Origin: Sipunculus nudus
Lineage: Eukaryota > Annelida > Sipuncula > Golfingiida > Sipunculidae
DNA length: 64,000 nucleotides
Direction: 5' to 3'
Assembly (NCBI GenBank): GCA_026874595.1
Contig: CM049307.1
Span: forward strand, 53,980,370-54,044,369
How positions within the stretch are numbered: the stretch's first letter is position 1; every line of letters starts with the position of its first letter. Shown piece after piece: positions 17,171 to 55,624 of this stretch. Under the pieces are notes generated by a model that searched no databases, had not been told where the DNA came from, and saw only the letters and a list, made by a program, of their open reading frames with translations. A program made the translations under genes and the position numbers.

Positions 17171-17243
17171 ATGGCAGGATACCACAAGACCTCTCCGGAG
17201 CGACTTCTGCCGTCGTTCTTGTTGTTGTTCCTGCACGTACAAG
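17171..17243 (+). CDS. Exon 1: start codon and signal peptide
   Basis: The ATG has A at -3 and G at +4. It opens 24 codons with a basic n-region (MAGYHKTSPER), a hydrophobic core (LLPSFLLLFLHV) and then a GT donor (CAAG|GTAGGC) in phase 1. Joining the last G to exon 2 continues as QGAFA-QDE, which gives Ala at -1 and -3 of an ideal signal peptidase site after residue 28. That the site is reconstituted only by the splice is the main argument for linking this exon to exon 2. The exon could instead belong to another secreted protein whose later exons lie in the 27-kb interval. The sequence just upstream is CpG-richer than its surroundings. Confidence 0.6.
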
Positions 17244-17846
17244 GTAGGCCTGGCTTTAATCCACAACCACCGGATCACGTCCGACCTATATATGTATATA
17301 ATAGTATACCTAGCTTGTTTACTCTTTTCTTGTCCAGGGCTATGCCAGTCTTCGTCAGCTTCGGATTCATACCTTACTACCATCATAATACATGTTCAGA
17401 GCACCCCAAGGTGAAAATGTTTTTTCTTGACATGCTAAATAAGTAACAATAAACATACGCTCTTGATTTTTATTTGGAAGTTTAATTTATTAGATTTATT
17501 AATATATATTTTTCTACCATATAACTTAAATATAAATATGAACATATATTATATATATTATTTTAATACTATTTATATAAATATATTAATATTATTTATA
17601 TACTTATATTAAATATTATTGTATTGGTAATACCTCCAAATGCTTATTAAGGTGTGATTACATTCACATGACACCCCCAGTGTTGCCATATGACTTTTTC
17701 CGTTATCATTAAGTAACCCCTGCTAGCTAATTTCACAACGTTCGCTATGTTCTACGTCGTGACCGTATTAGCCCACAGTCGGTCCGACATTATTTTTGCA
17801 GAATTTTTATTCAGATCATTGAATAATGCAATTATTTATGAGAACA

Positions 17847-17896
<50 letters not shown>

Positions 17897-20800
17897 AGAG
17901 TGAGTAGTCTGAGACCAAGCGTGTGCTTCCGCCAGGTTTGTGCTATAGGACTACATAGCAAAAAGTAGGCCAAGAGGAAAGTCTGTCACGTTCCGATCAC
18001 AGGTGAGCGCCAGAACAAAGGCTGCCCTAATACCAGTGAATGGCTAAAGTCCTATGCAGGGATAAAGTTATCACCCTATCTCCAAGTTATATAGAATCCT
18101 TTAAATCAGAAGTTATCACTCTATATCACAGTTGTATAGAACCCTTTTATTTAAAAAGTAATTGTGATCCATATTTCTTCCAAAATACTGTATTTTGTCC
18201 CGTGGGCGTGACCCTAACGCTTTACAAAATTTCACCAGAAGCCGTTTAAAACTTTTTGAGTTAATTGCTTACAGACAAAAGAAGGAAGACAGAAATATAA
18301 CACCCCAAAGCCTCGTGGAGGTTAAAATAACAGTAAAAAGGTTTTATTAGTGTCGACTCATCATAACATCCACCACAGGGTAAGATATGATCAAGAGAAG
18401 CCAAAGTCTTGTTTGTTTCAACTAAAGGTTTCTTTTGGTTATTTTGTTTGATTTATTACAGTAATCTATCAAATGGAAAAGTATGCATATAACATTATGC
18501 AAAACAGATGATACCAGAGTATACATGACAAACGAACATAAGGTAAGGGGACATGAATAAATATTAGAAGATTACTAATGTTAGCACAATGGGCACTTTA
18601 GTATAATTATTTCCATTGCGGCCCTTATATTATTACAGATTTGTAATATAGTTCTAGATAAATATACTTGATATACCATTAAGTTATCCATGTATAAGGG
18701 ACCCACGTCTTGGTTTGATGGTACTATATAAGGAAGCATCATTTCTACTTAAAGGAAGCTTGGTTCCTCAGAAGGAAAGATTTGTACAATCCAGGATGTA
18801 TCGTTATGAATCTGTATTGTATAATCGTATAATAAGTATCTTCAAGTACATAAGAAAAATAAGAAAGAAAGAAAAAAAAAAACGCTCAGATTATCATAGT
18901 TTTTAAATGCCAGGATCAAGCCTGGAGATCTGATTTTTTTAAGTAACAATGCTCAGCATACATCCCTCAAGATTTTAAGCCACACGAAAGGCTTTTGAAT
19001 GTTATGAGGAAAGTGATCTCATTGTTCATATATGATATAGAGACCCCCACACCACCCCCTCCCCAATGAAAAGGAAAGCAAAATTGTATTTAAAAATAAT
19101 ATACATTTTGTCAATTCGTGATAGTCATGCATTATTTAAAAATGAACCATTTAATCTTCAGTACAAATTAGCAATGAAGTAAGAAAAGGCGCTTTAAACC
19201 CCTAACATCGTGTTGATATATCATAAATTGTGAGAAAATGAGCTTTGTATCAGTTATACCATTATTACTATATAGCCTCAGTATTGATTGGATAATTAAT
19301 GTTTAAATTCTGAACATTGGATACAAGATAAATATTCAGGCGTGCGGGGTTCTCGGTACACCAGCTGGGTAGATCCTGCTCATTACCATGACAACGCGTG
19401 TTTACTAAAAATTCTTACCGTTCGTCCAGATGGTCGTGCGCGTATTGGCATGGCAACAGGTGTTCACGCGGGGTCCGCCTTGACATTGTTTCGTCTTTTG
19501 CAGAGTAAACATTTTGTGTGCCCTGACCGGGAATAACTTTACGATTTCCGACATTATCCGTTGAATGAGAACCTGTAGGGTCTTATTTCGGCTCCGTGCT
19601 TGCCCATAAGTCTTCAAAGATGCTATAGGAATCTTTTCAAAATGGGAGGTCAATTACTAACAGGTTTGTGTGCACAGCATTATAGTACCAACATAATGAG
19701 GTCTAGAAAACAGCTCACACTTTGAAAAGGTCTCCTCCCCTATTTACATAATATGGTAATCATCCTATTATGGCGGTTCTTAATACGATACAGTATCGTC
19801 TTAATGGCGATACAGTATAAACTGGGCGATATACCGATGTCACTGTCTTACTTTTAATACACTCAATACTATTTCCCTATTTATATTTTCTTACGTTTTG
19901 CTTCTCCTAACAACCTTAAATGTTTGCTTAATAATTTTGTTTACTATCAGTATACATTGATTTTGGTACAGAGTATGCTATATACAGTTTAACTAAAACC
20001 TGAAAAGATTAATTATATATCACTGTATGTTAAATAATAACGCAACGCTCCATGCATTAGTATGCATTACATGTATCTGATTTAATTTTTTTTTGGAAAA
20101 CTGTGCAGTGGCCTTCCCAAAGCATCTAATCTGCATGAGCTAATGCGAAAAATGTGACTGTTTTTTTTAAGGCAGAAATGTTATCAAATTGTATTTGTGA
20201 TTTAGGCAAAGCATTCCACTCCGTGAGAGAAGCATACATGGAAGTTCGGTCCGCTAAAGATTTATATTTCATCCTGGGCACCTCCAGCGTTATGACGTCA
20301 AAGTAGCGGGTTGGATAGACAAATATTTCCCTATATTATTCCGGACGATGTCACAGTTACTTAGAACACAGACAGCGTAATCACATATTTGTCTCATATG
20401 ACGTTAATGTTATAATAATAATGCTATATTCGAATTAAATTTGTTTGATAAATATCTGCAAATGAAAAACGGCAAAATTTCACTTTTAAGCACTTTTCGG
20501 TTTGGCTGCAATGTAATGAGGTCTAAACTGGGCGATAAACCGATATCACTATCTTACTTTTAATACACTCAGTACTATTTCCCTATTTATATTTTCTTAC
20601 GTTTTACAAATACAAAATGCTTAAGTTCAGTGGTGCATCGGCCCCCCGTTGCTTGTATGCTTTAATTCATCAAGAAGCCTTGGCAGTTTTTTTTTCAAAT
20701 CATTTAATTAAAAGGAATAAAAAGCCATCTCCCTCTCTCTCTCTCTCTATATATATATATGTGTGTATGTATGTATTGTGTATTCCTTATTAAACTATAA

Positions 20801-21547
20801 CGTATTTTTGTGCAATTGTCACATGCATACAAATAATCTTCCATTAATATTTTCATATCATTGGCATCATCTCACATTTTTCCAAGTAAGATTAGAAAAT
20901 ATTAGGAAAAAAAACAAAGTTTCAAATACATGGGTCTTATTTCATGGGGGAAAGGAACTACCTCTCACACCTATAGGACGTGGGGACAAAGTATCTTTTG
21001 ACCCCCCTCACATGTTAGGGAAATGAAACATCACATCTGACAGAGCAATTTCGAGATGATTCTGTTATTCAATTTATATAATCCACATTAAAATTAGTCA
21101 GTCTTTCCATTATTCACCACAAATGGAGAAAAAGTTAGGCTATTATAATGTGCGTGATGTGCCTCATTGATGCGTCATGATGTTGTTGACTGTTTGTAAA
21201 TGGAGATGGTTTGAAATCTTAATTATGAAAAAGTTTTGAAAATTGAGCAAATAAAAAACCAATTGAAAAACCAAAATTTATTTTCCTTAATTTTTAGGTG
21301 GAATCGAAAAAAAAACTATGATATACAGGGAGGGGTGTTCTCTTTTTCATGAGGAAGATTTCCTAGTGGGGATTTGAGCGTTGGTCCTCAGATATAAATA
21401 AGTTAAAATTCCTACATGCAAGGTCTTTTATGTTGTGGCAACTGTTCGTCTTGTTTTGGAGATTAAAGATGTTACAAGAATATTGATTTTCTAACAGTCA
21501 TGATCTGATTTTCTACTGAATCTAAACAAACTAAATTTTATATACAA

Positions 21548-21594
<47 letters not shown>

Positions 21595-22270
21595 GCGTAT
21601 TGCCTTACCAGTACGCGTGCAGTCACCCCGGCACCCCTCTTCCATGTATCCAGGCTACGCCCATGCTATACTTTAGTGGACTGCACCCTCCCCGCCCCAT
21701 TTTCCCATAAAACAAGGCCCATTTTGAAATGTGTAAAAGTTCACAATGTTGTGAAAAAGTTTGATCATCATTCAGGCGCTTTACTATCCTCTATGATTGT
21801 TATGATAGATATTATCAAAGCCGAAAAGTTTATGTACTACATTCTGTTTCGCAGGCATCAAGCTGTTTATTAGTTCTTACTGAAAGTCATTTAGGTATAG
21901 GAATTGGTCTTTCGGTCACCGTTTGACACAGAAACTTTTAACTTAAGATCCAGATGAAAGGATGTAGAAATTTCCGTGGATACCGTGGTATGCGCTCCGA
22001 AGAGTGTCGTTCTGGTAATGGTCTGATTTCATATCCAAACCACGGATATGACAGGTTTAATCGAAACATTGGTTCAATGGCTTTTACGTAAACATAGGTT
22101 TAATGGCCTTTAAGCACGTTATTCAGTGACCTATGTTATGAAGTATTGTTATAGTTTATTACATTTGGTGGTTGACATAATTTATTCACATTCCTCTATG
22201 TTTTACAGACCTTTGCACAGATGCAACATAATAAGGATATATTTGTGAATAGCGTGCGTAACGGCTGGCG

Positions 22271-22339
<69 letters not shown>

Positions 22340-25300
22340 GTTAATTGGTGGTTGTCATAATTTATTCACATTCCTCTATGTTTTCCTGACCATATTTTAC
22401 ATATACCAGGACATACAACTGGATAGCACTGAAAAAATTAAATCTTATTTCCATAGTGGTACATATAGCTGCCAAGATGATATGCAAGGAGCAAATTAAA
22501 AATTACAATGATAAATAATCCGTAAATGAAGACCATATAATTTTACCATTGACTACAAGAGTACCTAAAATTGCATGGATATTTAAAGACATATCACAGT
22601 TGATGTCATATATAATATTATAAGCAATAATATAATATATTTATAAAAATTAACATATATATAAATATATATAAATACTGAATACTTGTTCATTGACTTG
22701 AAAAAAAAATCACCGTTTATAATACAAAATCTCTATTATGACAATTTGACTAGTAATTACACTTACTACAATTATAACTAGATTAGTTAGATATAATAAT
22801 ATATTAAAAGAAGGTGAATAAAAACTCAGAAGTAAATTCAAAGTACATAAGTATATGAATGAAAAAATAAAACAAGTTATTCACTGACATCAAATAAAAA
22901 AAAACACAGTTTGTAATACCTAATCTCAATTATGACAGTTTGACTATGGTGAACACAATTATCATAAGACTAATCTAGTAACAATAATATACTATAATAA
23001 TATATTTAAAGAAAGTGAGCAAATAACGCAGAAGTAAATTCAAAAGTACGTGAGAATATGAAGTAAAAAGACCTTTAAATTAGTGTTTTATTTCATAAAC
23101 GCTTGACTGAAAGAGAATCAATGGATCTGAACCATTTCGATGATAATGTCTTTTGAAAGGAATATGATATATTTATATGACAAATATGTTCTGCTGAATT
23201 TTAAGCCATTTAAAAATTCGACAGATACTAGTAACCTTTGTAATTTATTGTTATTTGTATTTCATTACAGTCGTATGTATTTGTGGCTATAGGTTAATAA
23301 CATGCATACACGTAATTTATACACAAAGGTCTTCAGACAGAACACAAAACGTTGACATATACGTCGATTTATATGTCCTTTTTTGACAACGCTCTTCTTT
23401 CGGTTAGGTCAATAGAATTTATACTTTTTATTACTTTTACAAAACTTTTTAACCTTCCCATAGGGCATCTGCTTGTAGGTTAAACACCTTAAATGTTATT
23501 TAAGAGATAAGGTTCGCACCGTGTGGATATATCTCTATATCTGTATGTAGAGACACGTATGCGTGCACGCTTTAATCGTTTTAGGAATGTCTTCCATTTA
23601 CCTCTTTATAAACCCAGTACGACTTGACATTTTATATTTGATCAGCTCTGAATGGAAACCTATACAAAGACGTACATTCATGCCAGTGGGCGCCTGCTTG
23701 GGTGTATTGTCTTTTGTGAAGAATTGCCGAGGTACGTATCATTAACTATGTACTGAAGGTATGAGAGAAATTCTTCGGGTGCTTCACAAGGATATGCTAT
23801 TGCGCCCGTATTGTTCCCATGCTCAAACGAAATCATTTCTGGAATAAAGACTTCTTTGTCTGAAGTTTTCTCATAGAGTATTAAGGATGCAGGAATGTTA
23901 TTCCGCCGGTGTCAAGTTGCCTGAATCTGCGACTTCGCCATCACCACCCGTAGGTGGTCCTAAGAGTTATGGTCTTTAATATTCAATTTTCACTACTCTT
24001 TTCCTTCTTTTTACTTTCAATAAAATTTGTCCGTGATAAACTGACTTTTTTACATCACTTTCATCAAAGGTTCAAACTTTTTTTTTGTTTCATGAGGAAT
24101 TTCTTTTCTATCTTTGTCTGCCTATGACCAAAATTAAAAGCATGGTCTAATATTTGTTGAACATTATCATTAATGACTTATTTATCAACAATTTATCAAA
24201 ATCAAATATTTTGTGGTCTTTTCTTTAGCATGAGTTATTTAACATATATTCCCAAAAATACCCTCCCCGTTTGCCATCAACTTTTTATCGGTCCTCAGTT
24301 GAAAACTTAACACTGTATATTCTCAAATGTATGATATCAACAACGTTAAGACATATTTGAGCAACAAATACTTTTATGGGCTGCCAATTCCCGACTTTTC
24401 CCTTTACTTCTCCATATTTTTCTCGATATTTTGCAAGATCTACTGCATAGACTTATTCAATTGAAATATAGCAGTATTGCTGTCTAGAGGAATTTCAATC
24501 TGACGGAGAATCTTTTAGAACTATCAAAACAACGAATTCCTTATTATTTTCTCATCATACTGATGAACGCGTTATAACATCATACTGATGTTATTTAAGT
24601 TCCTTATATATTGTGAAACGTTGCAGGTTAAAAAAAAAATAACTTATGCGGACACAAGGTGTTACCGCACGTTGAACTTATGTTTTATAAAAAAGGAGGT
24701 CAGTTGAGGTATGAGTCTCGTGAAACTGGAAAAAAAACTTATTTTTAAGGAATAGCGCAAAGAGGATGAGTGTTTGTGGTCCGGATATAATTCCGCTACG
24801 CGACACTCTGGTCATTAACATGTGAAAACCGGAAACGTGAGATCATCAGTTCTGATCACTGGAATATTTTTTCTGATAGTTGGGAATTAAATGACCTAAC
24901 CATTCAAATATTAATTAATACAGATACATTGATATAACCGTTTGATACGGATGTTCACATTGCTACTATTTTGGACTGAAGTCCGTAATTTGGTTGTTTC
25001 CTCTCAAAGATTGGATTGGGGGGGGATTATTCTTTTATATTCAGCCATGAATCAGGACCACATAATGTGTGAAAGTGTGAAATTATCATTATCCTTTCAT
25101 TCGGATATCAAAGTAATATCTACGCATTTGAATAAACCAGCTTTGAACTCAGAAGGTATCATTGACGGGTTGGTGTAGATAGTATTCTCTGAAGGGAGGC
25201 ACAGCCGTAGACTCCAAACATCAGAAAGCCATCTGCTGTACAAAAATAATCCTTCTTAGTAAAGTGAAAGTTACAAAAAGCTATATGTTGGCAAATAAAA

Positions 25301-28300
25301 TTTCATATTCATCTCTCCTTAGTAATTGATAATAATATATATAAGATCTACTATAGATCCTGCTTCCCATACTGCAGTGGACAGAAATATATGATGTTGC
25401 TGCTTTGCAAGTTTCACGTTAGGAGTGGTGATACTGGGTATATATAATGTCACTTGTAAACTTTGAACAAGGGCGAACCTGACCGCCAGTGCGTGCGAAA
25501 TGGTACAGGAATTGTGTACGAACTGCTCGCCACTCACGCACTCCACGTTATGACAAAGACATGGGATTTTCACAAATACGGATGAAATATCATGTATCGC
25601 GGGATTTGATGGACTTGGGACAACTTGTCACCATGCCATCCGTGCTGGTGGCTATTTTACGGTTTGAAACCCAGTGTTGACAGGTGACACAAAAAGGTCA
25701 GAGGTCAGAGCATAGGTATGCGAGCGAATGAGGTGGTATCTTTGTTGGTTAAGAAAGCGATGTCTTGAGTGAAACGAAAAATAACCTTGGGGTCTGGGAT
25801 ATTCAGATATTCGGTGGGTGGTAATGGCGGGTTCGTGTGTACTTTTGCGACGTAAAATGGCTTTTGGTCAGCGGTCATTGATGTTGCCCGTCTCATCACA
25901 TTCCACAACCGTGTATTTGATGAATATAAAGTGACTATAACTATTATACGCCGGGGGGACCATGAAATGTCAAGTGTAATATACAGTCCCATGTCCAGCG
26001 ATCCACGACCAGCGTCAAATTGCATGCTTTGCCATATGATAAACCTGTCAACATTTTTGGTATGTTATTCAGTGTCATCACAACCACTTTAAATTTATCA
26101 CAGGTAAATCTGTGATATTGCACAAAATGTCGCAGGATTCAGGAATTCGATTTTTCCTGGGAACGCGTTGCATTTTCCAGGTTGTTAACGTTTTCTCCTG
26201 GGTTTACGAACGTGGTTGGTCCGAGGTTTCGCGTGACCCGTGAATATCTTGTGATGACAATGTTAAATGCCGACATATTCTCACACAGCCAACTCGCTTG
26301 TTAACCTGCTGGAATAAATAACCCACCCGGGTGCAGATAAAATTCGTAACGCGTTGCCTTTGTGTTCCTTGTTTGTTTGTGGGTCTATAGTGGGTACAAG
26401 GGGGATTGTCACCGACCGGTGAAATACCGAAACGTGACACGGGTGTAATATTCAGAAATATCTCAGTTCGGTCAACTGAGTCATTTCTTTTACATTTTTT
26501 GCTGTTCTAAAATGGTATAAGGTTATTAAACCCCTGCTTTTACGTTACGTTTTAATAAGAACATTTGTCATTTGTACGTATTATATAAACTTCTTTACCT
26601 AAAAGTTTATTGAAATTTGCTTTAAAGCACTTAAATTAATTTACGTGAGGTCCGCTCTGGTTTGTCAAAATTTGGTTTGGTTCACGCCAAACGAACGAAC
26701 ATCTGCAAGAACGCAGGCTGTATTTGACAAGCTATTTGGAGTACAATATACACACAAACAGTGACTGTTTAGATATTTGACTTAAAGAGTATTCGGTCTT
26801 ATCAGACATGAGAAAATGCCTGGCATTATTTCTTTATCAATAAAATTTACACTTGTGTCTTCCAGTCGCTTATCCCAATTTCCCCACCTGTTATCTTTCC
26901 AATTACCAAGTCCACTTCCCCTTGGTTACTGAAAAGATGAATTAGTGCGTTTTAAAATCACACAGGAGGATTTTTTTTGTTAAACGTCATAAACTCACAT
27001 TAAGCTGTAAGGAAATAAGTCGAGTTCCCCTCGTTTGCTACCTTAAAGCTTAATGTAAGTTATAACTTAAAACATCTCTCCCATGTGATACTAAATTGCA
27101 CTAATTCATTTGAAAACACACCTTTCAATTCTTGTTCAACATGAAATAGAATAGAATAAGTTTTATTCAGGAAAAAGCCTCAGGCCCAAAGTTCCAAAAA
27201 AAAGAAACATCAACATAGTAATACAAAATATATATCAAATTGTCATTTTAATAAAACTTAAATAATACAATAAAATATACAATTATAATTAAGGTTATCA
27301 ATTTGCCATCAATGATTCAAGGTTAACACATAATAAATTATAAATTTAATAAATTAACTATCCAGTGATTGTTTTCTCCTTTTAAGTGAATGATATACAA
27401 ATTCTGCAACACTTGCTATCTCACATGGTTCCTTTAAATTAAAAAGTTTCTTTAAATTATGTTCATTTGGTTCTCGTAAGTCAGCTCTTAAATACTTACT
27501 CCTCAGATCTACATACATAGGACATTCAAGCATGAAGTGACTTTTTTTTTAATATGTTTAAACCTCTATTCAAACAATACATACAACTTCTTTCTTCTTT
27601 TGCTGTTCCCTGATGTCTGCCAGTTTCAATGGATAATTTATGATTTGAACATCGTAATATGGCAAGTGCCTGTCTATGACCTTTGTTAGGAACACATGAA
27701 ATGTACTTCTCTACTGTCAGCATTGATTTACAAGACGCATAGAAATCCAACCTGTTACATAAGGTTATATCTTCTTGCCATTCTTGCATTGTTAAAGCCT
27801 TTAGTCTTTGTTTGACATTTTTAATTAAAATGTTACTATTTCCTACATACCGTGCTAACCAAACATAACCTAAGCCTGTTTTAAACAATAATATCCTTAT
27901 ATGAGTTGCCCAAGTTATTTTTCCCTGTTCATCTAACTTTACCATCAAATAATATAGGTGCCTTGGGTATCCTTTGTCTGCCATACATAATATCTTTTGT
28001 TCAGAATATACCTTGTTCGGAATAACGCAGAAATCAGAGAATATAGTAAAGCAGAGAAAGTAATTCTAAAGGTTTAAGTAAGAAACGGAAAGTGATTTCA
28101 TGCAAGGGGTTGTCACTCCTGTACAGGACTTCGGGTAGCAACCTTATATATTCTAAAATTCATGAAGCTTAGACAAAGAACAATGGCATTGATGTAGGGT
28201 GGAGGGTTGGGCATTGTCAGAGTTACCGTGTAATCAGGATTACTCTGTTTGGGATATCCGTGAGTTCAAGTGTCCTGGTTGATCCAGAGCTGCGCCCGTC

Positions 28301-45600: not shown

Positions 45601-48600
45601 TTTTACGAATTGTTTTCTCTATTTTTGAGACCTTTAAAACTGTGAACATCTGTCAACAGGGCACAAATTGTAAAGACTGGACCTAGAATCTTCATTCCTC
45701 ATACAATGAGAGACCTATGAAAAGTCTCCATGGAAACCTGAAATAAGGTCTCTGTTACGCATATCCTTTGAGCTGTTGGGCTCCCAATTACTCCCCAGAA
45801 TAATGGAAAATTCGGTAAAAACAAATTGCAACATCTCAATAACTACAACACTGATGGTCATGATTTTTGGCATACATATTGATCAAGAGGTGTTTCATCA
45901 GTTTCTGCAGACTGGTGGCACCACCTGTATTTGTTCGTGGTTTTTTACGATTTTTTTCTCTATTTTTGAGACCTTTAAAGATATGAACATTTGTTAATTG
46001 GGCACAAATCATAACAACTGGACCTAGAATCTTCATTCTTGACACACTGGGAGACCCATGAAAAGTCTCCATGGAAACCTTAAATAAGGTCTCTGTTACC
46101 CATATCCTTGAAGCTATAGGACTCCGAAGTATCCCTCAGAATAATGGACAATTTGATACAAAAGCTGAAGTATCTGAACAACTAATGCAGAGATCACCAT
46201 GATTCTTTGCATGGATATTGATTATGGAGTGTTTCATCAGTTTCTGCAGACTGGTGGCACCACCTGTATTTGTTCAAGGTTTTTTACAAATTTTTTCTCT
46301 ATTTTTGAGACCTTTAAGGATGCTGTCATCTGTTAACGTGGCACAAATTGTAACAACAGGACCTAGAACCTTTATGTTGTCGTGCAAGGAGGCCCATAAA
46401 AAGTGTCTATGGAAACATGAAATTAGGTCTCTGTTACCCATATCCTTCAAGCCATAGGACTCCAAAGTATCCCTCAGAATAATTGAAAATTTGATATAAA
46501 AGCTGAAGTATCTGAACAACTAATCCAGAGATCACCATGATTCTTTGCCCGGATATTGACCATTAAGTGTTTTTATTAGTTTCTGCAGACCGGTGGAACC
46601 ACCTGTATTTTTTTTTTTAAGTTTATGCATTTTTTCTCTATTTTTGAGATATATAAATACAGTCCCAATCTTGGCCTGGTGGTTAATTTGTTTGATGCTT
46701 CAGTTGAATGGGTATATACTACCATTCAGATGATAAAATTTCCTTTGGCGAATCTCTTTCCAGTCAGCTGAGTGTCATGACCCATGGGTCACTTGTTTTG
46801 AACTTCGTGGTTGCTGGCTTGGAAATTTTACCTCTTGTGTATCATCCGTATTCTCCTTCCTGAGGAGATTTATCCAATTTTTATTTGAACATGTGAATGT
46901 ACCGCTTGATTGCCTAATATACGAATGTTATACTTACTTATGTGAATTCGTCAGGGTCACATTCATTTCAGGCCGTCAAATAGGTACAAATCCAAACGAC
47001 AGTTCACCGATGAGCCGTATTCTAGTCTGCCCAAAGAGCGCAGGAAGAAAAAGAAACATGGCTACTTTGCAGGACCACTACCGCCACCTGTCGTGTGGGC
47101 CACGAACCCTGAGCTTTTCAGCAACGTCAACCCGCCCCCTCATGCAATGTACGGGAAAGCGCCACCGGGTCCACACAGACTCGAAGATGGCCATTATGTC
47201 TCAAATCCCGTGATTTACGCGAGAGGTAAGCGTGATTCTCGCAACTTTACATTTTAACTGCTTAGGGTTGCATGCGTTTCGCGTCACTGATGCAAACACC
47301 ATGTATTAATTTGGGGGCTTTATCTTTAACCAATATATATAACCAGTGGCGACTGTTCAAAAGGTTATTATAGCTATATACTCACAATGTGGGTATATTG
47401 CATATTCTCACAATGTGGTTATGTTCTTCCAAGTTTTACTGGGATAGGTGACCTTTTAGATATTCGCAACGTTACTTTACCATGCCAGGCATGGGATGTT
47501 GAGTACATGAAATACCATTGTCATGAACCTGTTTATATTGTGTGAAAAATGAAATTGAAAAAAAAACTTTCATACGCATCTTATGTACACATTTTTTAGG
47601 TGAACCACTGAAGAGAATAGATCGTATGCCATATTACATTTCCTAAATATAGTGTGATATAATTATAGTACTACATCAGTTTGACGAATGTAATGGTCCC
47701 GAATAATTGTTTCTCTGGATATAATTAGGTAATAAACAGTGAATTGGTAGCTTTCCCGTCATATGCGAGAGTTTTCAGTTAGAGTAATGTTGTCATGATT
47801 TATCCAAATTGTTACGGGGTGACATAAAAGCGGACCGAACTCAGTGTCTCGCTATTGAAGCCTGCTTTGCCAGCGAAGCGGTTGGAACGCCGGACTTGTA
47901 CGCCACCGACCTGGGTTCGACTCCCGGATCGGCCCAGGATTTTCCCCTCATCTATTTGTCTTCGTAACAAAATATATAATTTTGTCTTGAGAAAAATTCG
48001 TTCTGGTATCTTTATTATGTTTTCATGCCGGTGTTGCAATTATTCTGTGTTTTCATTACCCCTTCATGGTACCAAAGGTATAAAATTAACAAGATATAAA
48101 CACATTTTACCAATAACATTTTGTTTTTACACAAGTTTACGTTTGCTTTCTGGACCTATGTTTGCTATTCTGACGATGACGGAGATCGCGCGATCTGTTT
48201 GTAGAGGTGTGCTTGGATATTGCTTTGTCTGTAACCCTTACACCCCTTTCTCCGCTTCACTCAAACCTGCAAGGGGTCTTCATATAGATTTTAATTGTCG
48301 TTATAGAAAAGTCCATATATGTGGCTGGTTACGATGATGTTGTAAACATTTTGTACATGCGAGAAGCCTAGTTGGCTGCTCAAGCAGTGCTTTCCACACG
48401 ATGTTGATTAACGTTATGGTCTTCAATATTTCGCATCTAACATTTGTGGCTAGAATACCTAACCGTCACAGGTATTTAACATTATTCATTGGCACACAGA
48501 GTGCTGCATCTTCAGCTGTTGAAGAGAGCCGTGGTCGTAACCTGGTAGAGAACATCTTGCATGTGCGCCATAGCAGAGCCAGTTTAGATGACGTATATAT

Positions 48601-51600
48601 CTCATAGCATGGCATAACAGAATATATACTCATTGCATGGCTAAACAGAATACATTATTTCAAAACATGATCCAAAACATGATAGAAATCAGGAAAATTT
48701 AAACTTAGGAAACTTACCATATAGAGTTTTAAACAAAAGCGGACCCCTTTGTGTTATATTTTTATTTAACATAAAACGGGTTCTAGTGATTATCCCCATC
48801 TAAAACCCCATGCTGATTTGAGTGAAGTCTTCACATTATAATGACCGAATAGTAGTTAACGTTGCTTTGTTAGCCCCGTCTTCTTTCCTTGGTAGAGCCT
48901 TTCTTCCGCCGGACGGTGCGGCGCGTACTGAAAAGTCTGCCAGCGGTCTTCCAGGTCAAGCGCTTTGGTGGGTGCAGGCAATAATTGTATTTCCGTAGCT
49001 TCTTTAGATCCGAACAACCTTGTAAAAAACCTTTTTATAGCGCGGATATATTGTTACTAACGTGTGCAGCTTTTACTAAAATGTTTTGTGAGGTTTGACA
49101 TTAACTTTTGTCTCCACGCTCACGTATATGTTTACAAGATTTATCTCTTAAAAAGTAACAAAGATACATAAACTGCTTAAGACTTAAAATTAATTGAAAT
49201 TTTATTGTTCAAGTTTAATTTAAATGAAATTGATTATTTCATATATAAAACATATGGTCTACAAAAAAAAAAAATAGTTGCAGATGTGACAAAAATATTT
49301 GTGCAATAGTTTAGCTATATAATGTGTTTTAGAGTGTATTCAAAATAAATTTTCCTGTAGATTCCAAATATTTGCCGGGATCAGTTCACGCATCATCTAC
49401 ATCAAAAGAGGTGGAGGAGAGAGGACAAATCACAGAAATTGCTCCAGAGGTTGGTAAAGTTGACACAAACGAAGCCCTGAGTTCCTAATTTGTATTACAG
49501 ACATATCTGACATTTATGTGCATACCATTTACATCCTTATATACATAGTACTTATTGCGAATCTGCCACGTTGTTTTTGCATATTTTCTGTGGGTGGGTG
49601 GGCATTTGATATATGGTTATGACCACTGCCGTGTCGGAGAGACCTTTTCTTTACGGAAAAGGAATTTAACCTAAAGTAGAAAAAATATAATAAAATTTGG
49701 TTATGACTGATGATGTCCATGTGATGAATGACTCATCATATTTAGTTGCATGTAAAATGCATTCACATGAAAGAAAATATACTATTTCCGTGTACGATTT
49801 TAGGATTTTTAGTCATTCATATATTTATTCATTTACGGACAATATTACGAACACATTATATTAAGTAGATGAATACGTTTCACAAGGATGACTTATATAT
49901 CCCCCAGACAATCAGAGGTCCCGTTCACCATGAAGCCGCGGAACAAAGTGTGTCACGTGGTCGCAGTGACGTCATCTCAGCAGACGACAGCGATCATACA
50001 GCGACTGCTTTCTGTAACTACGTTAGTCCTAACGTGGCCACACAAACGGACGATGTTGACTCTTATGTAGCGAGAGCCAGGAGCAATTACAGCACCTTAG
50101 AAGACGCCAATGGAACAGGAACGCAGAAAACTGACAGTGGTTATGGTAGCAACGCCCGTCTGACGTCACTCAGTGACTGGAGTCTTGGCGGGAAAGTACC
50201 ACGTCCAGTTGTCCGGAGCCAAAGTGTCCTAGACAAGACTAATCAACTTAAACGTAATTCGGGCTCCGAGAAGAAAAACGTGAAAAGGGCCTCAAGCTTT
50301 CAAGCGCAAAACTCAGAGAAAAGTCAACTACAGTCGTACCGACCTACAATAATCCGCGAAGTGGAAGGGTCGATTTTGTCACTGAGTGATGCACAATCTA
50401 ATGTAACAAACAGTAGCAAGAAAAGACAGTCGAGAGAGGAGAAGCAGAGAGAAAAGGAGGAATCGCCACAGTCAATGATTGACCATTATCAATTCATTTT
50501 GAAGTCGTCGACGGATTTGTCTTCTCCGGCAGGACAAATAGGTGAGGACACTTACAGCCTGCCAAATAAATTGAAACGTCACTCAGACGAGAAAAAGGAA
50601 AACCTTGAGTCGCCGTCGACTCCTATTCCTCCACCCCTGCCGCCCCCTCTCCGCCAGAAAGAGGGTTTGATCAACAGGGGGTATGATGGAAGTGATGAGG
50701 ATGTGTCAGATTCAAGACAGGTCACGGTGGAAGCGGTCGTGGAAAAGACCAACCTTAACACACCGTTCACTAAACCGGACAGGGAAATGTCTTATTCTGT
50801 CAAAGGTGAGGTTTTATTCAATCGTCGGATTTTTAAAACGTAGTACACTGGAACCTGTCTGAAAGAGACCTGCCTCGTAAGACCACTTGTCTATTAAGAC
50901 CCCACTTGAGTGAACCAAAAGCATTCACATTAGTAAGAACTGTCCTGTGTTTACAAGACCATCTGTGAAATGAGACAACTACGACCAGCCCCACAGGTGG
51001 TCTCATTATACAGGTTTAGTGTGTATCCCCCATTATTATAGGAGTTCATTTGGAATACCAGTCAGCGTAAAGTGTTGGCAACAATACAAACAATGGGACA
51101 CAGCATCGTAGTATGGTATAATGGCATATCAAAGGGGCCTTAGACCAAAAATGGATGCGGTTTGAAATTAGGAATAATTCACTTTAAACTTGCATGTTAT
51201 CAAACAATTTTGAGCTAAAGGTCTAAATTACCTTTATTTTAGCCTATTTGGTTATTCTGATGGCGTGGTGTCATCTGTGAGCAGCCAACCCCACTATGTT
51301 GGTTAAAACTTTATTAAACTAGCGAAAGCTTTATTAAACTAGCGAAAACTTTATTAAACCAGCCAACAGTTTTTAAATGTATATATCATCGTGAATTTGA
51401 CCGGTGACTTTTCCTATTACCATTCGGATGGAAATGTTATGAAGATTACTGGTACTTTACTTTATTTGACCAACAGTTTACAAAGTATGATTTTCGTTTA
51501 ATTTCATTGAAAGCGAGCTAGAACCTCAATTCTTTTTGTGGGCTACCTTTGTTGAATTTATCTGTCAGTCTATAAAAATTATAGGCAAATCTCTTGAAAC

Positions 51601-52792
51601 CTTCATTGCTACGCTATTGCATAGACTGTATGAAATCCCAAAGGTTAAACAAAAGCATCGCTTTAACCTTCATAACAGTTTATATAGTGGTGCCACCGAC
51701 AAAACACCCGCTTTTTCAGTCAAAATAAATTCTCCGTTAGATAAATGCTTATTCTACTTTGATATAGAGTTAAGACAGGACCATCCAATGGCAAGCTGTA
51801 AATATGTTAAAAATTTTGTTTCAATACTCTCCTTGTATTCCACAGGTAAAAGAGTAGCTGATGACGCCTTCAGGTTCCTGGATGAGTTTGATGACACCAT
51901 GTCTTTTGGAGATGAGCTGGAAGGTAGGGACTTTGCCGTGATAGGAACGGTTACTCATGACCCAGGGTCGGATTACCCGGGGGGGGGGGTCGTGGGCGTT
52001 ATGGCGTTTGCACCCCCCCCCTCCCCTTTTAAACAAACCTTGAAAATACTTTTTTTGCAAGGCTCAACACACAGTTAATGTAGTCATTTACCTGATTCTG
52101 TTTTTTTTTTTCTAAAGCGTGTTTTGTCAGGCTTTACGCTTAATCTGTGCAGCAACCCCATGGGCGGATCCAGGATTTAGGAAAAGGAAGGTTTTAAACC
52201 GGAGGCTTGACAAAACCTTAAGAAAAATCCCCATGTCTTGAAAACAGGGTGGGGTTCCAGGCCGCAAAACTGATCTGAAACCACTGATAAAAGGTTGCAG
52301 ACGACTCCCCATTCCCCCCGGATCTGCTTCTGGAGCTGGATTAAATATCAAAAGCTTCGTCGGTGTGAATGGTTTAATACAACTTATTTCCACACGAATG
52401 CTTACCCTCCCTGCCTTGACCGACGGAACAACGCGAGGTATTGTTACTGCATTCCAATTATTAGGTTGAATCGCTTCGGTGATATTATTGAAAATGCATG
52501 GCAAGGTTCACATACCATACTTTATGAATTTGGGCTGCTTTATCCCTTTTCTTATTTCCATTGGCCTACTCTTATAGAAACAGCTACGTATAAGAATGTA
52601 CGACGTTTGATGAAGATATTTTGTATATTTTGAGAGAAAGGAAGAGTATGGCGGTTCATACAAATATACATCAACCTATAAGCTTGACATTAAGACATTT
52701 GTACGATGCTATCAGTGCTTAACATTCTCGGTCAATACATTAAGACAAAACGATGATAATTCTCGGTCTATACATTAGGACAAACGGCGGTT

Positions 52793-52873: not shown

Positions 52874-54585
52874 TGAGCTAAATCTTTTATCAATACTGTA
52901 TTTACCAACTGAAATTTCCTTCAGATTTTTAGCTCAGCTGACTAAATTCAACTGAGGTATAGCGATTGTCCTTTGTCTGGTGGCTGTCTGTCTGTCCATC
53001 CTTCCGTTAAACTGGCACGTTTTGAAACCGTTGGACCTACGAATCCGAAATTCAGCATACAGCTCGATGTCCTCAGGATCTCCTACTAAACTGAAAATGG
53101 GGTCACTGCAATTTCGTTCCTTCGAGAAATTAAGGAAAACCTCAATTTTCCATTAAGAAACTATTATCATACTTCATGACTGTCTAACATCAAAACCACT
53201 TATTTGTTTTTGATCATATTTAAGATAAATATTTCCTATATATTTCCTATGTACATGCATGCCTGAAATTAGGTCACTGTGATGTAATTTATAAAACATA
53301 CGGGTCCAAACATAATGATCTTTTTAAAAAAAATCAGGAAAGCTGTTTACTCACACAACATGATAAATGCTAAATCTAGACACTTTTTCCGAAGTATATA
53401 ACTTTATTAAATCAAAATTTAATCGAATATCCGAAATTAGATCAAGATCTTTTAATTTTTAAGTTTTTAGCATAAATATAAAATCAGAACCTTAAATTTT
53501 GCCCACATTTGACCATGACACATTTTTTCCCTGTAAGTATTGTTGATTTGATTTTCACATCATATACACTTATGGATATAATCTGTTAAATTCTGAAATT
53601 TGGAAAAAAAATGAAAACTTAGGCTAGTTATTGAAGTTTATTTTAGAGACATGACTGTATTCACTTGCATTGTCAAGATCCAGGCATCCCACTTCTGGTC
53701 ACTGTAAGTCATTTAATACCGCTTTGCCTGCTTCTACCTGATTTGTAATGCATCACTGGGAAGTATCCCTGCTGAAACATTTGTACAGTTATTCTCATGG
53801 CGCCGCACCATTGAATCCTTCCTCCTTTGAACTTGGGACATTAGTTTATTTTCAACTGTATAAAATTTGTATAATAAAAGAAACCAAATAGTATAATAAA
53901 CAAAAGTATGACTCAGTTGAAACATCATATATTATACTCTTGCCAAAGTAGAACAGAGATAAAATAGTCTTCTTTATTTGTCTACTTGCCTGTCTGTCGA
54001 TTTTTAAATATTCAGTAATTGTAAATCATATCTTTTCCTGTGAAATCTAATAACGTGTTTTTTTATATGCAGAGTTGTTGCAACTCCCACCATACTCCCA
54101 TTATCAATTCCTTGCACCTGTTGACTGGAAAATTAGTTCTATTGCAACTGTATATACATTTAATAAAATTGAAAAAAGGTATAATAAAAAAATTAGGCTC
54201 TAATTGAACAAATGTATAAACTGCTGAACTGTTAACAGCTATAATCAGAGCCAACCCATGATCATGGTTACAGTATAGAACTTATGTTTAGAAACTGCTC
54301 ATATGCTTCAGTTTTAAGGCCCCTTTTTCAATTAAAAAAAAACGCACAGATCTGCATGAGCTTTTAAAGGTGCGGGCATTTCTGCGGAATCCCCCACCCT
54401 CCGCATAACCTGTTTTCATAAGGGATTAGCCCGTCCCTAAGCGTTCCCGGCATTATGTCGAGCATGTTTCAGTTATGTACATCACTGTAGTCATGAATGC
54501 ATTTAAAATTTTCATTATTTTTGCAGGAACGTATAGTTTCTATCACGCCAGTGTGCTAAAAAGCATGCGGTAGCGGTCGCAGTGT

Positions 54586-54669: not shown

Positions 54670-55624
54670 TGGAAAGGGTATGCACAGAAAAGTGGTTCAC
54701 TGCCAGTGAACCACTTTTCTGTGTATACCCTTAACATCTATAAAACAATGGAACCAGCATGGCTATTCATACATCTATATATATATATATAATTAAAGCA
54801 GGGCAACCATGAAGTATATTTTTTAATATTATATATATATAAATATAAGTATATTTATGATATATGCTCCGGCGGCTCCAAACAGACCGAATTCGATTCC
54901 TTGACCTAAAACGCGCGTGACATGATTTACACTGGTGCGATTTTTTTTTTTTTGCGTGCGAAACGCTCGCTGAAAAATAGCGCATCGCACGATGTAAATT
55001 TCACACGCGTTTCCGCCTGCGTGGAAAAGAGATATATGATTTACAATAGCGCGATTGTTTCATGGAATAGGGCCCTAACATAAGAATACACACACCATCA
55101 GATCAAAATATTTTGCAACAATTTTCTCATCGATACAAACCCATTATAACAACCAACCATGGCCAAAAATTATCTGTTTCTCTCCTTTAACGACATTTGT
55201 TATTATTTCAGATTTTTATCGTTAAGGTCAATTTCAATTGAGTGCCGTGACCCATGGGTCTCTTAGTTTATGTTGGTACTTTGAAATGTAGGAGAAATTT
55301 CTGTTAGGTTTGTTTTGTCCTTTTAAGGGAATTTTCAGATTTTTGGCCCTTTGAAGGAAATTTTGTACTTGCAATATTTTCAGAAATAGGAACATGGAAA
55401 ATTTCATCTTTACGTGTAATAATTCATTTTTTTCCATTACAGCTCGGTAACAAGAAGAGTTTTGTCCATCCAGAACGTCCATCAACCTGCAGACAGTGCC
55501 TTGCACAAGCATTTCAACATTAGAATTGCATACGCCAGAGACATACCTTAGTCCCCGTATATATGGCGATCATTTAAGTTACTATCCTAATATATTTGAC
55601 GATCAGTTTAGTTACCTAGTGTAA
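17171..55624 (+). CDS. Eight-exon gene for a type I single-pass membrane protein with tiny ectodomain and long Tyr/Ser/Pro-rich tail (span incl. introns)
   Basis: The span joins eight exons (listed separately) in compatible phases (1,2,1,1,0,1,1) into about 595 residues. Residues 1-28 form a signal peptide, about 29-37 are outside, about 38-61 are the membrane helix, and 62-595 are cytoplasmic. The tail carries about 22 tyrosines, three YxxPhi motifs (YSSL 79, YSTL 275, YQFI 408), a DSGYGS motif at 290-295 and a proline stretch with PPLP at about 453-462. No enzymatic or globular domain is visible. The layout matches what is known of transmembrane adaptors, which recruit SH2 and other modules through phosphotyrosines; a signalling-scaffold role is inference. 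No symbol is given because I recognise no homologue. The weakest points are the exon 1-2 join across 27 kb, the exon 5 donor and the last exon. Confidence 0.7.
17480..17625. other. Extremely AT-rich stretch downstream of exon 1
   Basis: About 145 bp almost free of G and C, made of overlapping TATATTA/ATATAAATA words. No coding signal. Confidence 0.6.
17848..17889. repeat. (AAT)n microsatellite
   Basis: Uninterrupted AAT/TAA units, about 600 bp after exon 1. Confidence 0.9.
19816..19900. repeat. Direct repeat, copy 1 of 2 (~85 bp)
   Basis: ACTGGGCGATATACCGATGT through CCCTATTTATATTTTCTTAC is repeated with few changes at 20527-20608, about 710 bp away. Short spacing and length do not by themselves indicate LTRs. 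Confidence 0.65.
20527..20608. repeat. Direct repeat, copy 2 of 2 (~85 bp)
   Basis: ACTGGGCGATAAACCGATAT through CCCTATTTATATTTTCTTAC is the partner of 19816-19900. Confidence 0.65.
21551..21592. repeat. (TA)n microsatellite
   Basis: Pure TA dinucleotides. Confidence 0.9.
22167..22391. repeat. 45-bp direct repeats flanking a (CT)n(TA)n tract
   Basis: GGTGGTTGACATAATTTATT (then CACATTCCTCTATGTTTT) at 22167 recurs with two or three changes at 22345, 178 bp later. Between them is (TC)n 22275-22313 and (TA)n 22314-22339. Confidence 0.75.
22680..23070. repeat. Diverged tandem duplication, two ~195-bp units, AT-rich
   Basis: Unit 1 (from TTGTTCATTGACTTG) and unit 2 (from GTTATTCACTGACATC) share TTTATAATACAAAATCTCTA/TTTGTAATACCTAATCTCAA, TATGACAATTTGACTA, ATAATAATATAT and CAGAAGTAAATTCAAA. 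Confidence 0.6.
27147..28010 (-). mobile_element. 5'-truncated non-LTR retrotransposon: C-terminal reverse transcriptase ORF plus 3' tail
   Basis: From 27984 leftward the - strand encodes about 150 residues of a LINE polyprotein C-terminus (LCNRLDFYASCKSML, NHKLSIETGRH, RSCMYC). A shift at a nine-base A run near 27542-27550 moves the frame, and the protein resumes with HFMLECPMYVDLRSKYLRAD and ends near KRRKQSLDS. CMYC...HFMLEC has the CxxC...H...C knuckle typical of this family's tail. The 3' end reads AAACTTATTCTATTCTATTT, a short tandem terminus typical of such LINEs. The copy is dead (truncated and frameshifted). It lies antisense in intron 1. Confidence 0.85.
28647..28712. repeat. (TA)n/(CATA)n microsatellite
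   Basis: TA repeats interrupted by TACA units; the YIYIYI frames here are not genes. Confidence 0.9.
29765..29953 (+). mobile_element. RTE-type LINE (or derived SINE) 3' tail
   Basis: The order GGATCTGGATCATGAGCCGG, ACACCAAAATCTAATCG, TTCGTTGGTCCATT, GAAAATTTCATGCGACTCCG, TCGAGTTATATTGTGAACAA and a final GACGGAGGCAATAA follows the widespread RTE-like 3' tail consensus as I know it. The overlapping 122-residue - strand open frame (29554-29922) is therefore probably not a gene. Confidence 0.65.
32010..32272 (+). mobile_element. LINE remnant: C-terminal end of reverse transcriptase
   Basis: The + strand reads KLFKIIKGIGNIDPESLF, then SSGSSDQGHHLK and KGHKDLGIR. After a frame change near 32200 it continues IIFSQCVINHLDSLPVKLP and stop. 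This matches the family pattern of an RGHxxKL-like block, then FSxRVxNxWNSLP, at the end of CR1/Jockey-type ORF2. It is 5'-truncated and frameshifted. Confidence 0.7.
33939..34135 (-). mobile_element. LINE remnant inside the hAT-like element: RT C-terminus
   Basis: The - strand frame gives YFTTPISGRVTRLASYGQA, then NSVTYGTHSLKHFGTMLWNS and KNAESLRAFKNKVIVL-stop at 33939-33941. The YG..SL...G...WNSL...K....FK pattern is the usual end of a non-LTR reverse transcriptase ORF. Only about 65 codons are left; the rest is lost. Confidence 0.7.
34565..34609. repeat. (TA)n microsatellite inside the hAT-like element
   Basis: Pure TA run. Confidence 0.9.
34838..34887. repeat. (TA)n microsatellite just right of the pogo-like MITE
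   Basis: Pure TA run starting about 50 bp after the MITE end. Confidence 0.9.
35817..36068 (+). CDS. Candidate exon or ORF fragment, Tyr/Cys/His-rich (intron 1)
   Basis: A stop-to-stop frame of 83 codons reads GYIVLEQLYPSLFGTIQSSY, HQECLSYGPTVLNDFYMDMV and GACCLCSGCQTRSISSC-stop. A possible acceptor (CACCCACCAG|GAA) lies inside. Its phase does not fit the membrane-protein gene, so it would be another gene or an element remnant. A second frame over the right third is also open, which lowers confidence. Confidence 0.25.
   Translation, partial: RGYIVLEQLYPSLFGTIQSSYKYTHQECLSYGPTVLNDFYMDMVPYKASEWFHHHSGEGIMPPQTLGACCLCSGCQTRSISSC
36640..36737 (+). mobile_element. GCGGATCC-TIR MITE, truncated copy 3
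   Basis: Only the right half is present: TCTGAAACCCTTAGAAAATT, a G tract, then CTGGATCCGCTTCTGC. A second left-end fragment (GGGCGGATATGAAGGGGG) starts about 45 bp further on. Confidence 0.55.
37781..37857. repeat. (TTA)n microsatellite
   Basis: ATT/TTA units with one ATC interruption; the poly-Tyr and poly-Ile frames are not genes. Confidence 0.9.
39592..39649. repeat. (TA)n microsatellite
   Basis: Pure TA run in intron 1. Confidence 0.9.
44231..44345 (+). CDS. Exon 2: end of signal peptide, short ectodomain and transmembrane helix
   Basis: The acceptor is CTTTCAG|GT and the donor AAG|GTACGT; the exon enters in phase 1 and leaves in phase 2. It encodes AFA, a nine-residue hydrophilic stretch (QDESLPGTW), then about 24 strongly hydrophobic residues rich in Val and Gly, ending ICCLVRR. 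The Arg pair and the basic start of exon 3 act as a stop-transfer signal, predicting an outside N-terminus and an inside C-terminus. Two adjacent Cys at 58-59 on the cytoplasmic edge are plausible palmitoylation sites. Exon GC is far above the flanking introns, as expected for coding sequence here. Confidence 0.8.
44559..44750 (+). mobile_element. GCGGATCC-TIR MITE, copy 4 (intron 2)
   Basis: The left end TCGGATCCAGGATTTATGGA and right end CCTTGATCCGCTTCTGC are imperfect inverted termini around GGGTCCAACCAAAGAGGACT, GGTCTGGAAAGGGG and CAGAAACCCTTAAAAAAGG. It lies about 210 bp after exon 2 and 150 bp before the large tandem-unit element. Confidence 0.7.
44898..46799 (+). mobile_element. AGCTCAGCTGAC-type element, near-complete copy D with about five ~340-bp tandem units (intron 2)
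   Basis: The left end is TTTTAGCTCAGCTGACTG. The right end is CCAGTCAGCTGAGTGTCATG followed by ACCCATGGGTCACTTG, so the ends carry a 12-bp inverted repeat (CTCAGCTGACTG). The interior holds about five head-to-tail units keyed by GGCACAAATCGTAA-like motifs near 44987, 45321, 45660, 46000 and 46341, each followed by GGACCTAGAA and, later, CTGGTGGCGCCACCTGTATT. No transposase is present, so any mobility would be in trans. It occupies most of intron 2 of the membrane-protein gene. Confidence 0.75.
46972..47225 (+). CDS. Exon 3: juxtamembrane basic and proline/tyrosine-rich cytoplasmic segment
   Basis: The acceptor CATTTCAG|G and donor GAG|GTAAGC flank 254 nt with a single open frame that continues the Arg split from exon 2 (residues 63-147). 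It opens with basic PSNRYKSKRQ, contains EPYSSLPK, a lysine cluster, GPLPPPVVW, an NPPP segment and ends near GHYVSNPVIYAR. Six tyrosines fall in SH2-ligand-like or YxxPhi contexts. The exon starts about 170 bp after the end of a 1.9-kb repeat element that fills most of intron 2. Codon use and composition look genuinely coding. Confidence 0.87.
47862..47936 (+). repeat. tRNA-derived SINE head or tRNA pseudogene
   Basis: GGGTTCGACTCCCGG is a good B box with its T-arm stem. About 35 nt upstream GCCAGCGAAGCGGTTGG resembles an A box and D-arm. The anticodon stem does not pair convincingly, so a functional tRNA is unlikely. It lies in intron 3. Confidence 0.45.
48896..48967 (+). CDS. Exon 4: short basic cytoplasmic segment
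   Basis: The acceptor is TTGGTAG|AG. The frame carried from exon 3 gives EPFFRRTVRRVLKSLPAVF and then QVKRF before TTTG|GTGGGT, leaving phase 1. An earlier possible donor (CAG|GTCAAG after 48954) would put exon 5 into a less protein-like frame, so the later GT was chosen because it alone gives DSKYLPGS in exon 5. The segment is rich in Arg and hydrophobic residues and might form an amphipathic helix lying on the membrane; that is inference. Confidence 0.68.
49361..49449 (+). CDS. Exon 5: Ser/Glu-rich cytoplasmic segment with possible alternative stop
   Basis: The acceptor is TTTCCTGTAG|AT. In phase 1 it reads DSKYLPGSVHASSTSKEV and then EERGQITEIAPE. Exon 6 is open only from its ATG onward in phase 0, so the matching donor must follow GAG as GTTGGT, which is a weak site. 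If it is ignored, the frame runs on for 12 residues (VGKVDTNEALSS) to TAA at 49486-49488, giving a complete shorter protein of about 214 residues. Another donor, GTTG|GTAAAG, would run into a stop early in exon 6. Long and truncated isoforms are therefore both plausible. Confidence 0.72.
49869..50805 (+). CDS. Exon 6: main cytoplasmic tail exon (312 complete codons)
   Basis: This is the longest clearly coding block in the window: 937 nt open after AAGTAG| and ending GTCAAAG|GTGAGG in phase 1. Residues 202-513 of the model are Ser/Thr/Gln/Asp-rich and probably disordered. Visible motifs are DLYIPQ, NYVSPN, an ATQTDD stretch of dynein-light-chain (LC8) type, SNYSTLED, the DSGYGS degron-like hexamer at 290-295, several basic RxxS/RxS sites, DHYQFIL, an acidic/basic patch near EEKQREKEE and TPIPPPLPPPL at about 452-462. 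The exon starts with ATG, so an internal promoter could in principle yield a soluble tail. Read-through of the donor ends at a stop within 30 nt. Confidence 0.92.
50844..51025. mobile_element. Tc1/pogo-like MITE directly 3' of exon 6
   Basis: TACACTGGAACCTGTCTGAA at the left and GGTCTCATTATACAGGTTTA, then GTGTGTA, at the right are inverted versions of one another. The ends are flanked by TA. The element is about 180 bp with no ORF and starts about 40 bp after the exon 6 donor. Confidence 0.6.
51846..51923 (+). CDS. Exon 7: acidic cytoplasmic segment
   Basis: TTCCACAG|GT and GGAAG|GTAGGG bound 78 nt, phase 1 in and out. The frame gives KRVADDAFRFLDEFDDTMSF and then GDELE: Asp/Glu-rich with regularly spaced Phe. 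A symmetrical 1-1 exon could be skipped without a frameshift. G/C tracts of a small repeat begin about 50 nt downstream. Confidence 0.8.
52163..52334 (+). mobile_element. GCGGATCC-TIR MITE, copy 5 (intron 7)
   Basis: GGGCGGATCCAGGATTTAGG at the left and CCCGGATCTGCTTCTGG at the right bound sequence similar to copies 2 and 4 (TCTGAAACCACTGATAAAAG, GGTTCCAGGCCGCAAAA). G tracts here are eroded. Confidence 0.65.
52799..52870. repeat. (TA)n microsatellite
   Basis: Pure TA run ending about 55 bp before AGCTCAGCTGAC copy E. Confidence 0.9.
54592..54667. repeat. (TA)n microsatellite with one GA interruption
   Basis: The TA run abuts the 73-nt hairpin. Confidence 0.9.
54667..54739. repeat. 73-nt hairpin (36-nt arms) flanked by TA repeats
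   Basis: The arms AGATGGAAAGGGTATGCACA... and ...TGTGTATACCCTTAACATCT match with about three mismatches around GTTCACTGCCAGTGAAC. A long TA tract abuts the left side and another starts about 35 bp to the right. It is best read as a small foldback MITE that went into TA-rich DNA in intron 7. Confidence 0.8.
54925..55055. repeat. CpG-rich inverted repeat cluster in intron 7
   Basis: GATTTACACTGGTGCGATTT is mirrored by AATAGCGCATCGCACGATGT (then AAATTT), and a third related block, GATTTACAATAGCGCGATTG, follows. CGCG-rich words make the block stand out from its AT-rich surroundings. Origin unknown. Confidence 0.5.
55455..55624 (+). CDS. Exon 8 (provisional): C-terminal tail and stop
   Basis: A strong polypyrimidine acceptor ends TTACAG at 55442. 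Using it in phase 1 gives only Ala-Arg-stop. Using the next AG, 12 nt downstream (AACAAG|AAG), opens 56 codons, EEFCPSRTSINLQTVPCTSI and on, with TYLSPRIY and SYYPN, ending FDDQFSYLV and TAA. Tyr-Ser-Pro style matches the rest of the tail, which favours this reading. A third reading (phase 0 from 55443, LGNKKSFVHPERPS, 26 codons to TAG) would need an unseen extra exon. The exact C-terminus is therefore open. Confidence 0.5.

Follow-up and report, generated by a model that had tools for sequence, protein, structure and literature searches.

Among the vertebrate transmembrane adaptors (TRAPs), LAT, PAG/Cbp, NTAL and LIME share a layout of few outside residues, one helix and juxtamembrane cysteines, followed by a long cytoplasmic tail that lacks a recognised domain and offers many potential sites (excerpts of PMC2803307 and PMC4861716). 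The excerpt of PMC2803307 gives CxxC as the palmitoylation motif of LAT, LIME, NTAL and PAG, while LAX, SIT and TRIM are listed there as having no palmitoylation sites. PRR7 is likewise described as having a short ectodomain and one helix, with SH3-type motifs in its tail (excerpt of PMC5033326), and a tryptophan, W25, and a palmitoylated C44 are described for TMIE (excerpt of PMC9605866). None of the matches listed in the literature concerned, by title and start of the abstract, a TRAP from an invertebrate or a mollusc.

The window considered here is the whole stretch of DNA that was analysed, 64,000 nucleotides from Sipunculus nudus (assembly GCA_026874595.1, contig CM049307.1, positions 53,980,370 to 54,044,369). 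It is read as holding the gene of a single-copy, adaptor-like type I single-pass scaffold with about nine outside residues and a disordered tail that would dock proteins via short motifs, and a probability of about 0.5 is given to this reading. The predicted build is adaptor-like, and nothing shows kinship to LAT or PAG. The features of the locus are the following.

16751..17170, plus strand: GC-rich stretch, possible promoter or 5' UTR (GC 0.53 in 16751-17250, against 0.33-0.41 in the 4-kb bins of the window)
17171..17243, plus strand: exon 1, MAGYHKTSPERLLPSFLLLFLHVQ plus 1 nt, n- and h-region of the predicted signal peptide; donor top 0.46% among 3669 GT
17244..44230, plus strand: intron 1, phase 1, 26,987 bases long, in which no extracellular exon is recognised
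44231..44345, plus strand: exon 2, AFA|Q, ectodomain QDESLPGTW, predicted transmembrane helix and inner-edge CC; acceptor top 0.75%, donor top 0.30%
46972..47225, plus strand: exon 3, basic juxtamembrane KERRKKKKH and a Pro-rich stretch; acceptor top 2.7%, donor top 0.16%
49361..49449, plus strand: exon 4, codon score 1.1%, with weaker sites (acceptor top 12%, donor top 3.6%)
49908..50805, plus strand: main tail exon, inside a 324-codon open run; acceptor 49908 top 4.9%, donor top 0.14%
51846..51923, plus strand: acidic exon GKRVADDAFRFLDEFDDTMSFGDELE; acceptor top 0.47%, donor top 0.41%, codon score 5.8%
54527..54573, plus strand: candidate terminal exon A, GTYSFYHASVLKSMR and stop; acceptor 6.0, in phase, with ATTAAA at 54792
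55443..55450, plus strand: candidate terminal coding end B, AR and stop; acceptor top 1.0% (5.4), in phase, the next AATAAA only at 56807
55455..55624, plus strand: C-terminus of the preliminary description, ending YLSPRIYGDHLSYYPNIFDDQFSYLV and stop, least supported; its acceptor is at least equalled by 65% of AG sites

Joined, the exons from 17171-17243 to 51846-51923, with the main exon opening at 49908 or at 49869, form one open plus-strand frame. The chain of about 500 residues consists of a signal peptide, a possible cleavage site AFA|QDESLPGTW, a single helix with CC at its end and a disordered tail, and the total length varies from 504 to 571 residues with the terminal exon and the main-exon start chosen. 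Splice sites were ranked against all 3669 GT and 3183 AG sites, the splice weights, like the Kozak weights, being approximations not trained on Sipunculus nudus. Five of the six donors fall in the best 0.5% of GT sites and the 49449 donor in the best 3.6%; the alternative start of the main exon, 49869, keeps the same phase and has an acceptor in the top 40% of the AG sites. Codon scores, which were trained on the main exon and compared with null open windows, give a clear signal in exons 3 and 4 (exon 3 is matched by 1 of 210 null windows, 0.5%) and a moderate one in exon 2 and in the acidic exon. The open run that holds the main exon is the longest of the whole window on either strand. By these scores the gene core holds up. 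The preliminary description placed exons 1 and 2 at coordinates that were reproduced exactly from the sequence, with a phase-1 junction between them, but it counted seven junctions, where the rebuilt model of seven exons has six; overall its gene core stood, and its C-terminus at 55624 and its special tyrosines did not.

A 58-base exon at 48897-48954 was considered and rejected, as with it the frame would stop after 158 residues. At 195 codons, the open run at 51491-52078 is the second longest in the window; it includes the acidic exon in frame and reaches 355 bases 5' of its acceptor. Inside the main exon, a strong acceptor at 50533 (7.6) and a strong donor at 50541 (5.5) are close together, so splicing alternatives within this exon are possible. 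The tRNA scan gave 0 genes, and Rfam gave 0 matches at gathering score.

The N-terminus was considered with particular regard to whether exon 1 belongs to the gene. The real N-terminus might instead be another exon, which would make exon 1 foreign and the protein something other than a type I protein with a signal peptide. The codon score of exon 1 is in keeping with this, being an ordinary one that is reached by 11.5% of null windows and is not decisive, and another frame scores slightly higher. On the other side, the exon 1 ATG has a purine at -3, and no further ATG separates it from the in-frame stop just upstream at 17147. Of the 592 plus-strand ATG..GT phase-1 chains that precede exon 2, only that of 17171 passes three filters (donor at least 3, hydrophobic core h at least 2.0, purine at -3), against 0 of 927 on the opposite strand, in a test that was framed after the sequence had been seen. 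When the Kozak filter is dropped and the length range widened (850 plus and 1302 minus chains), 23680-23731 also passes donor at least 3 and h at least 2.0, and 17171 is the sole survivor on either strand at donor at least 4 and h at least 2.2. With loose cut-offs 6 plus and 7 minus chains pass and the plus-strand excess is gone; therefore, the support for exon 1 sits in the stringent range. Taken together, a foreign exon 1 is considered quite unlikely. Large animal genomes commonly contain orphan membrane proteins whose tails are disordered.

With exon 1 retained in the scaffold reading, the exon 1-2 splice makes the predicted cleavage site AFA|Q, as the preliminary description had proposed, and the predicted signal peptide spans the junction. 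Cleavage at this site, which was placed by the -3,-1 rule and not by a trained predictor, would leave outside about nine residues, the QDESLPGTW between AFA and the helix, again in agreement with the earlier claim. The frame of exon 2 is the best of three, its codon score being reached by 3.6% of null windows, and the joined product has the one helix with CC at its inner edge that had been claimed, with a 19-residue Kyte-Doolittle maximum of 3.22. As the outside part would be too short for binding a ligand, helix and CC together, the latter probably S-acylated, would serve as a membrane anchor. The GxxxG within the helix (G43-G47) may permit pairing.

The main rival is that this chain belongs to a larger receptor, as a short isoform or a misjoined end of it; the tail would be the cytoplasmic part of that receptor, and its ectodomain exons would lie either within intron 1 or before the start of the window. 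Extracellular cassette exons of phase 1-1 fit phase-1 junctions. As exons 1 and 2 meet in phase 1 and their junction could accept such cassettes, missed extracellular exons were sought, and the 27-kb intron 1, with its phase-1 ends, could hold them. A strong-site scan (acceptor at least 2, donor at least 3, length up to 700 bases) gave two candidates in intron 1 with codon scores of -28.6 and -13.4; the former, 23585-23731, is phase 1-1, which favours the receptor, but its codon score speaks against it. Such a scan would miss weak sites like those of 49361-49449 and long exons like the main exon, and a second, looser scan gave 3 candidates with codon score at least 0, of which 0 were phase 1-1.

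Pfam searches of read-through translations covered, on the plus strand, three frames of 4000-17170, 17244-44230 and 55630-64000 and, on the minus strand, three frames of 17001-47000 and two of the three frames of 55625-64000; plus 44231-55629 was covered as predicted protein only. No family came over the cut-off in the three plus frames of intron 1 (best MRVI1, E 0.24) or of 4000-17170, and the strongest chance-level read-through match was Oberon_cc (E 0.028, 14.8 of 28 bits). As a control of the library, 4 of 7 flank ORFs, picked by eye from 37, came over the cut-off, three of them as Ephrin_rec_like (E 3.6e-9 to 3.5e-12); these were single ORFs and not read-through frames of 4500 residues, so the control is only partial. 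Intron 1 thus appears to hold no convincing cassette exon and no Pfam domain, and a cleavage-like AFA|Q is already present in exon 2. A receptor tail with missed ectodomain exons is still the leading rival of the scaffold, and an unlikely one.

In the scaffold reading most of the function would fall to the tail. The preliminary description gave it more than 500 residues, about 22 tyrosines and no catalytic domain. A long tail with no Pfam domain is found, but it measures 445-512 residues with 16-22 Tyr, by terminal end and 49869/49908 start, and enrichment of Tyr was rejected: against an approximate background of 3%, the core tail has 17 Tyr in 456 residues (3.7%, p 0.21) and the preliminary model 22 in 511 (p 0.06). 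By charge-hydropathy the 456-residue core tail falls on the disordered side, and it has no second hydrophobic segment. In comparison with 2000 shuffles of it, YxxP (2, p 0.39), YxxL/I/V (3, p 0.49) and ITIM-type motifs (1, p 0.54) are at chance-like counts, YxN and YxxM are both 0, and no SH2-type motif stands above the shuffled sequences at p<0.05. The nearest Tyr signals are an acidic residue shortly before Tyr (14 vs 9.1, p 0.053) and Y[ST]x[VIL] (2, p 0.078), which might tilt the balance slightly toward Tyr phosphorylation; phosphotyrosine is probably not the main driver.

The other motifs of the core tail are PxxP (6, p 0.043), DSGxxS (1, p 0.024) and [KR][KR]x[ST] (5, p 0.025), these p-values, like those for Tyr, being uncorrected over the 12 patterns of the shuffle set. 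KRxS occurs four times, a count that 0 of 5000 shuffles reach; the test was framed after the sequence had been seen, and corrected over all dipeptide-x-S/T patterns the p-value is 0.16. The four KRxS, a DSGYGS and an IPPPLPPPLR are carried by the main tail exon, which is disordered. The cytoplasmic tail, disordered and about 450 residues long (longer with the preliminary C-terminus), would then dock proteins by short motifs, for which the best candidates are the four KRxS, as sites of basic-directed kinases, and the Pro-rich SH3-type ligands, and the single DSGYGS could give beta-TrCP control over turnover. In the excerpt of PMC4474599, DSGYGS is the closest-to-consensus degron given for human TRIM9, a candidate beta-TrCP substrate; TRIM9 is marked apparently stable in the same table, which leaves its DSGYGS unproven as a degron.

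The tail also bears on the adaptor class to which the protein had been assigned. The tiny ectodomain, the juxtamembrane Cys and the long tail without Pfam domain agree with that class, whereas the Tyr motifs, the CxxC and a match to a TRAP model do not. The short ectodomain, one helix and long cytoplasmic tail of TRAPs are seen in the gene model and its hydropathy, with both transcription and topology inferred. Where the excerpted description of LAT, LIME, NTAL and PAG has CxxC, the predicted protein has CC, and the set of several SH2-binding Tyr motifs found in TRAPs is missing from its tail. Unlike TRAPs, it has a cleavable signal peptide, by prediction, and neither YxN nor YxxM. The predicted protein matched no Pfam model of the TRAP family over cut-off, and a search of the genome with the PAG (PF15347) and LAT (PF15234) models gave nothing at E<=1, which is a weak negative because in 14 control genomes the PAG model gave 0 matches and the LAT model one, in a bacterium and below cut-off. 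Genuine membership of the vertebrate TRAPs (LAT/PAG/LIME/NTAL), followed by very strong divergence, would explain why the layout is as in the excerpted descriptions; with these model searches, the CC and the absence of YxN against it, such descent is extremely improbable.

A fuller version of the scaffold reading is that of an invertebrate TRAP-like scaffold that evolved independently: its signal would be cleaved, its ectodomain nine residues long and its helix acylated, and its disordered tail would be switched not by phosphotyrosine but by Ser kinases of the basic-directed type and by turnover through beta-TrCP. In all of these parts together it is unlikely. If orthologues keep the layout, ligand-blind transmembrane scaffolds would not be exclusive to vertebrate lymphocytes and would have arisen more than once, with another phosphorylation logic; if they show an ectodomain, the locus would be an ordinary receptor tail.

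For the C-terminus, the better-scoring candidate ends after 51923 are those at 54527 and 55443. The last exon ending at 55624, which the preliminary description had proposed, was not borne out and is rejected. Its frame can be entered from the phase-1 donor 51923 at 55455 or 55458, with poor acceptors (-5.6 and -6.2) that are at least equalled by 65% and 71% of the 3183 AG; later phase-1 acceptors into it score -1.3 to -2.8, and the better acceptors of that stretch, 55474 and 55493, need another phase. The 55 codons of this frame are background-like, as 41% of 865 null windows score as high. Poor acceptors and background codons leave the PDZ-like ending -YLV, together with five previously counted tyrosines, unsupported, though conceivable. 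Between 51924 and 55442, a scan for a further in-phase exon whose acceptor and donor both exceed 2 gave none. The likeness to PRR7 extends to the short ectodomain, the one helix and the SH3-type motifs; the PDZ ligand of PRR7 has a counterpart only in the unsupported C-terminus, and no Pfam family over cut-off links the two proteins.

Another relative to be weighed is TMIE. The best Pfam family for the predicted protein is TMIE, at 13.3 bits (cut-off 27; E 0.075), followed by EphA2_TM (E 0.32) and Collectrin (E 0.34), and no family reaches its cut-off. Among PDB sequences the top match is TMIE of C. elegans, with E 0.012 for the first 159 residues and 0.069 for the full 570-residue model with the preliminary end; ACE2 comes next (E 0.086, 159-residue query), generic transmembrane segments being nearly as good, and the chance-level matches include a UrIg2 chain (residues 491-542, E 0.13). 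The likeness comprises a signal peptide, a very short ectodomain, a Trp at the outer edge and CC or Cys at the inner edge, and could mean a TMIE-like accessory subunit whose helix lies against a channel or receptor, with an acylated inner Cys and an outer Trp corresponding to the palmitoylated C44 and W25 of TMIE.

The alignment score is reached in 0.02% of 5000 shuffles when all three blocks are shuffled, but in 1.8% when WLW and CC are held fixed, and the pair was chosen from a whole-PDB search. The worm TMIE chain has 117 residues against about 500, and the predicted protein is without the RxPRT elbow: of the elbow arginines given in the excerpt of PMC9605866, R49 aligns to Pro64 and R52 to Arg67, and the conserved pair is not kept. 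A separate TMIE exon sits at another place in the same genome (contig C13, L008) and scores 52.4 bits, with a RIPRTKQEI elbow, so the predicted gene is not the TMIE orthologue. With the sub-threshold bit score and the almost equal ACE2 match also against it, a TMIE-like subunit is highly unlikely. The predicted scaffold has no second copy in the search of the 1.43-Gb genome, which scores only its best candidates: a 557-residue query gave 8 matches at E<=10, seven of them its own locus and the eighth at E 4.4. The absence of relatives is an absence from Pfam, from PDB sequences and from its own genome.

Several other features were seen in the window and its flanks. Downstream of the window, on the minus strand, three ORFs have Ephrin_rec_like over cut-off (L005 and L006), and a possible membrane-plus-tail ORF without Pfam match lies at L005:345-716 (minus). 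On the other side, the window has as a neighbour, about 13.5 kb upstream, an open frame for a galactosyltransferase at L002:5450-6550 on the minus strand (Galactosyl_T, E 4.8e-45). In intron 1, 27526-28065 (minus) is an open run of 179 codons that looks retroelement-like by eye, the minus-strand Pfam search giving nothing at E<=1. Upstream of exon 1, a tandem array at 9582-11010 has a 42-base unit in 34 copies with 93% matches, and its minus strand is largely open as ANDQNLFVSWYAIL repeats. Intron 2 holds a tandem array of a 338-base unit in 4.9 copies (44977-46649). The 15-mer TTAGCTCAGCTGACT, which we take to resemble repeats of mollusc genomes, occurs at 44899, just 5' of the 338-base array, and at 16058 and 52929.
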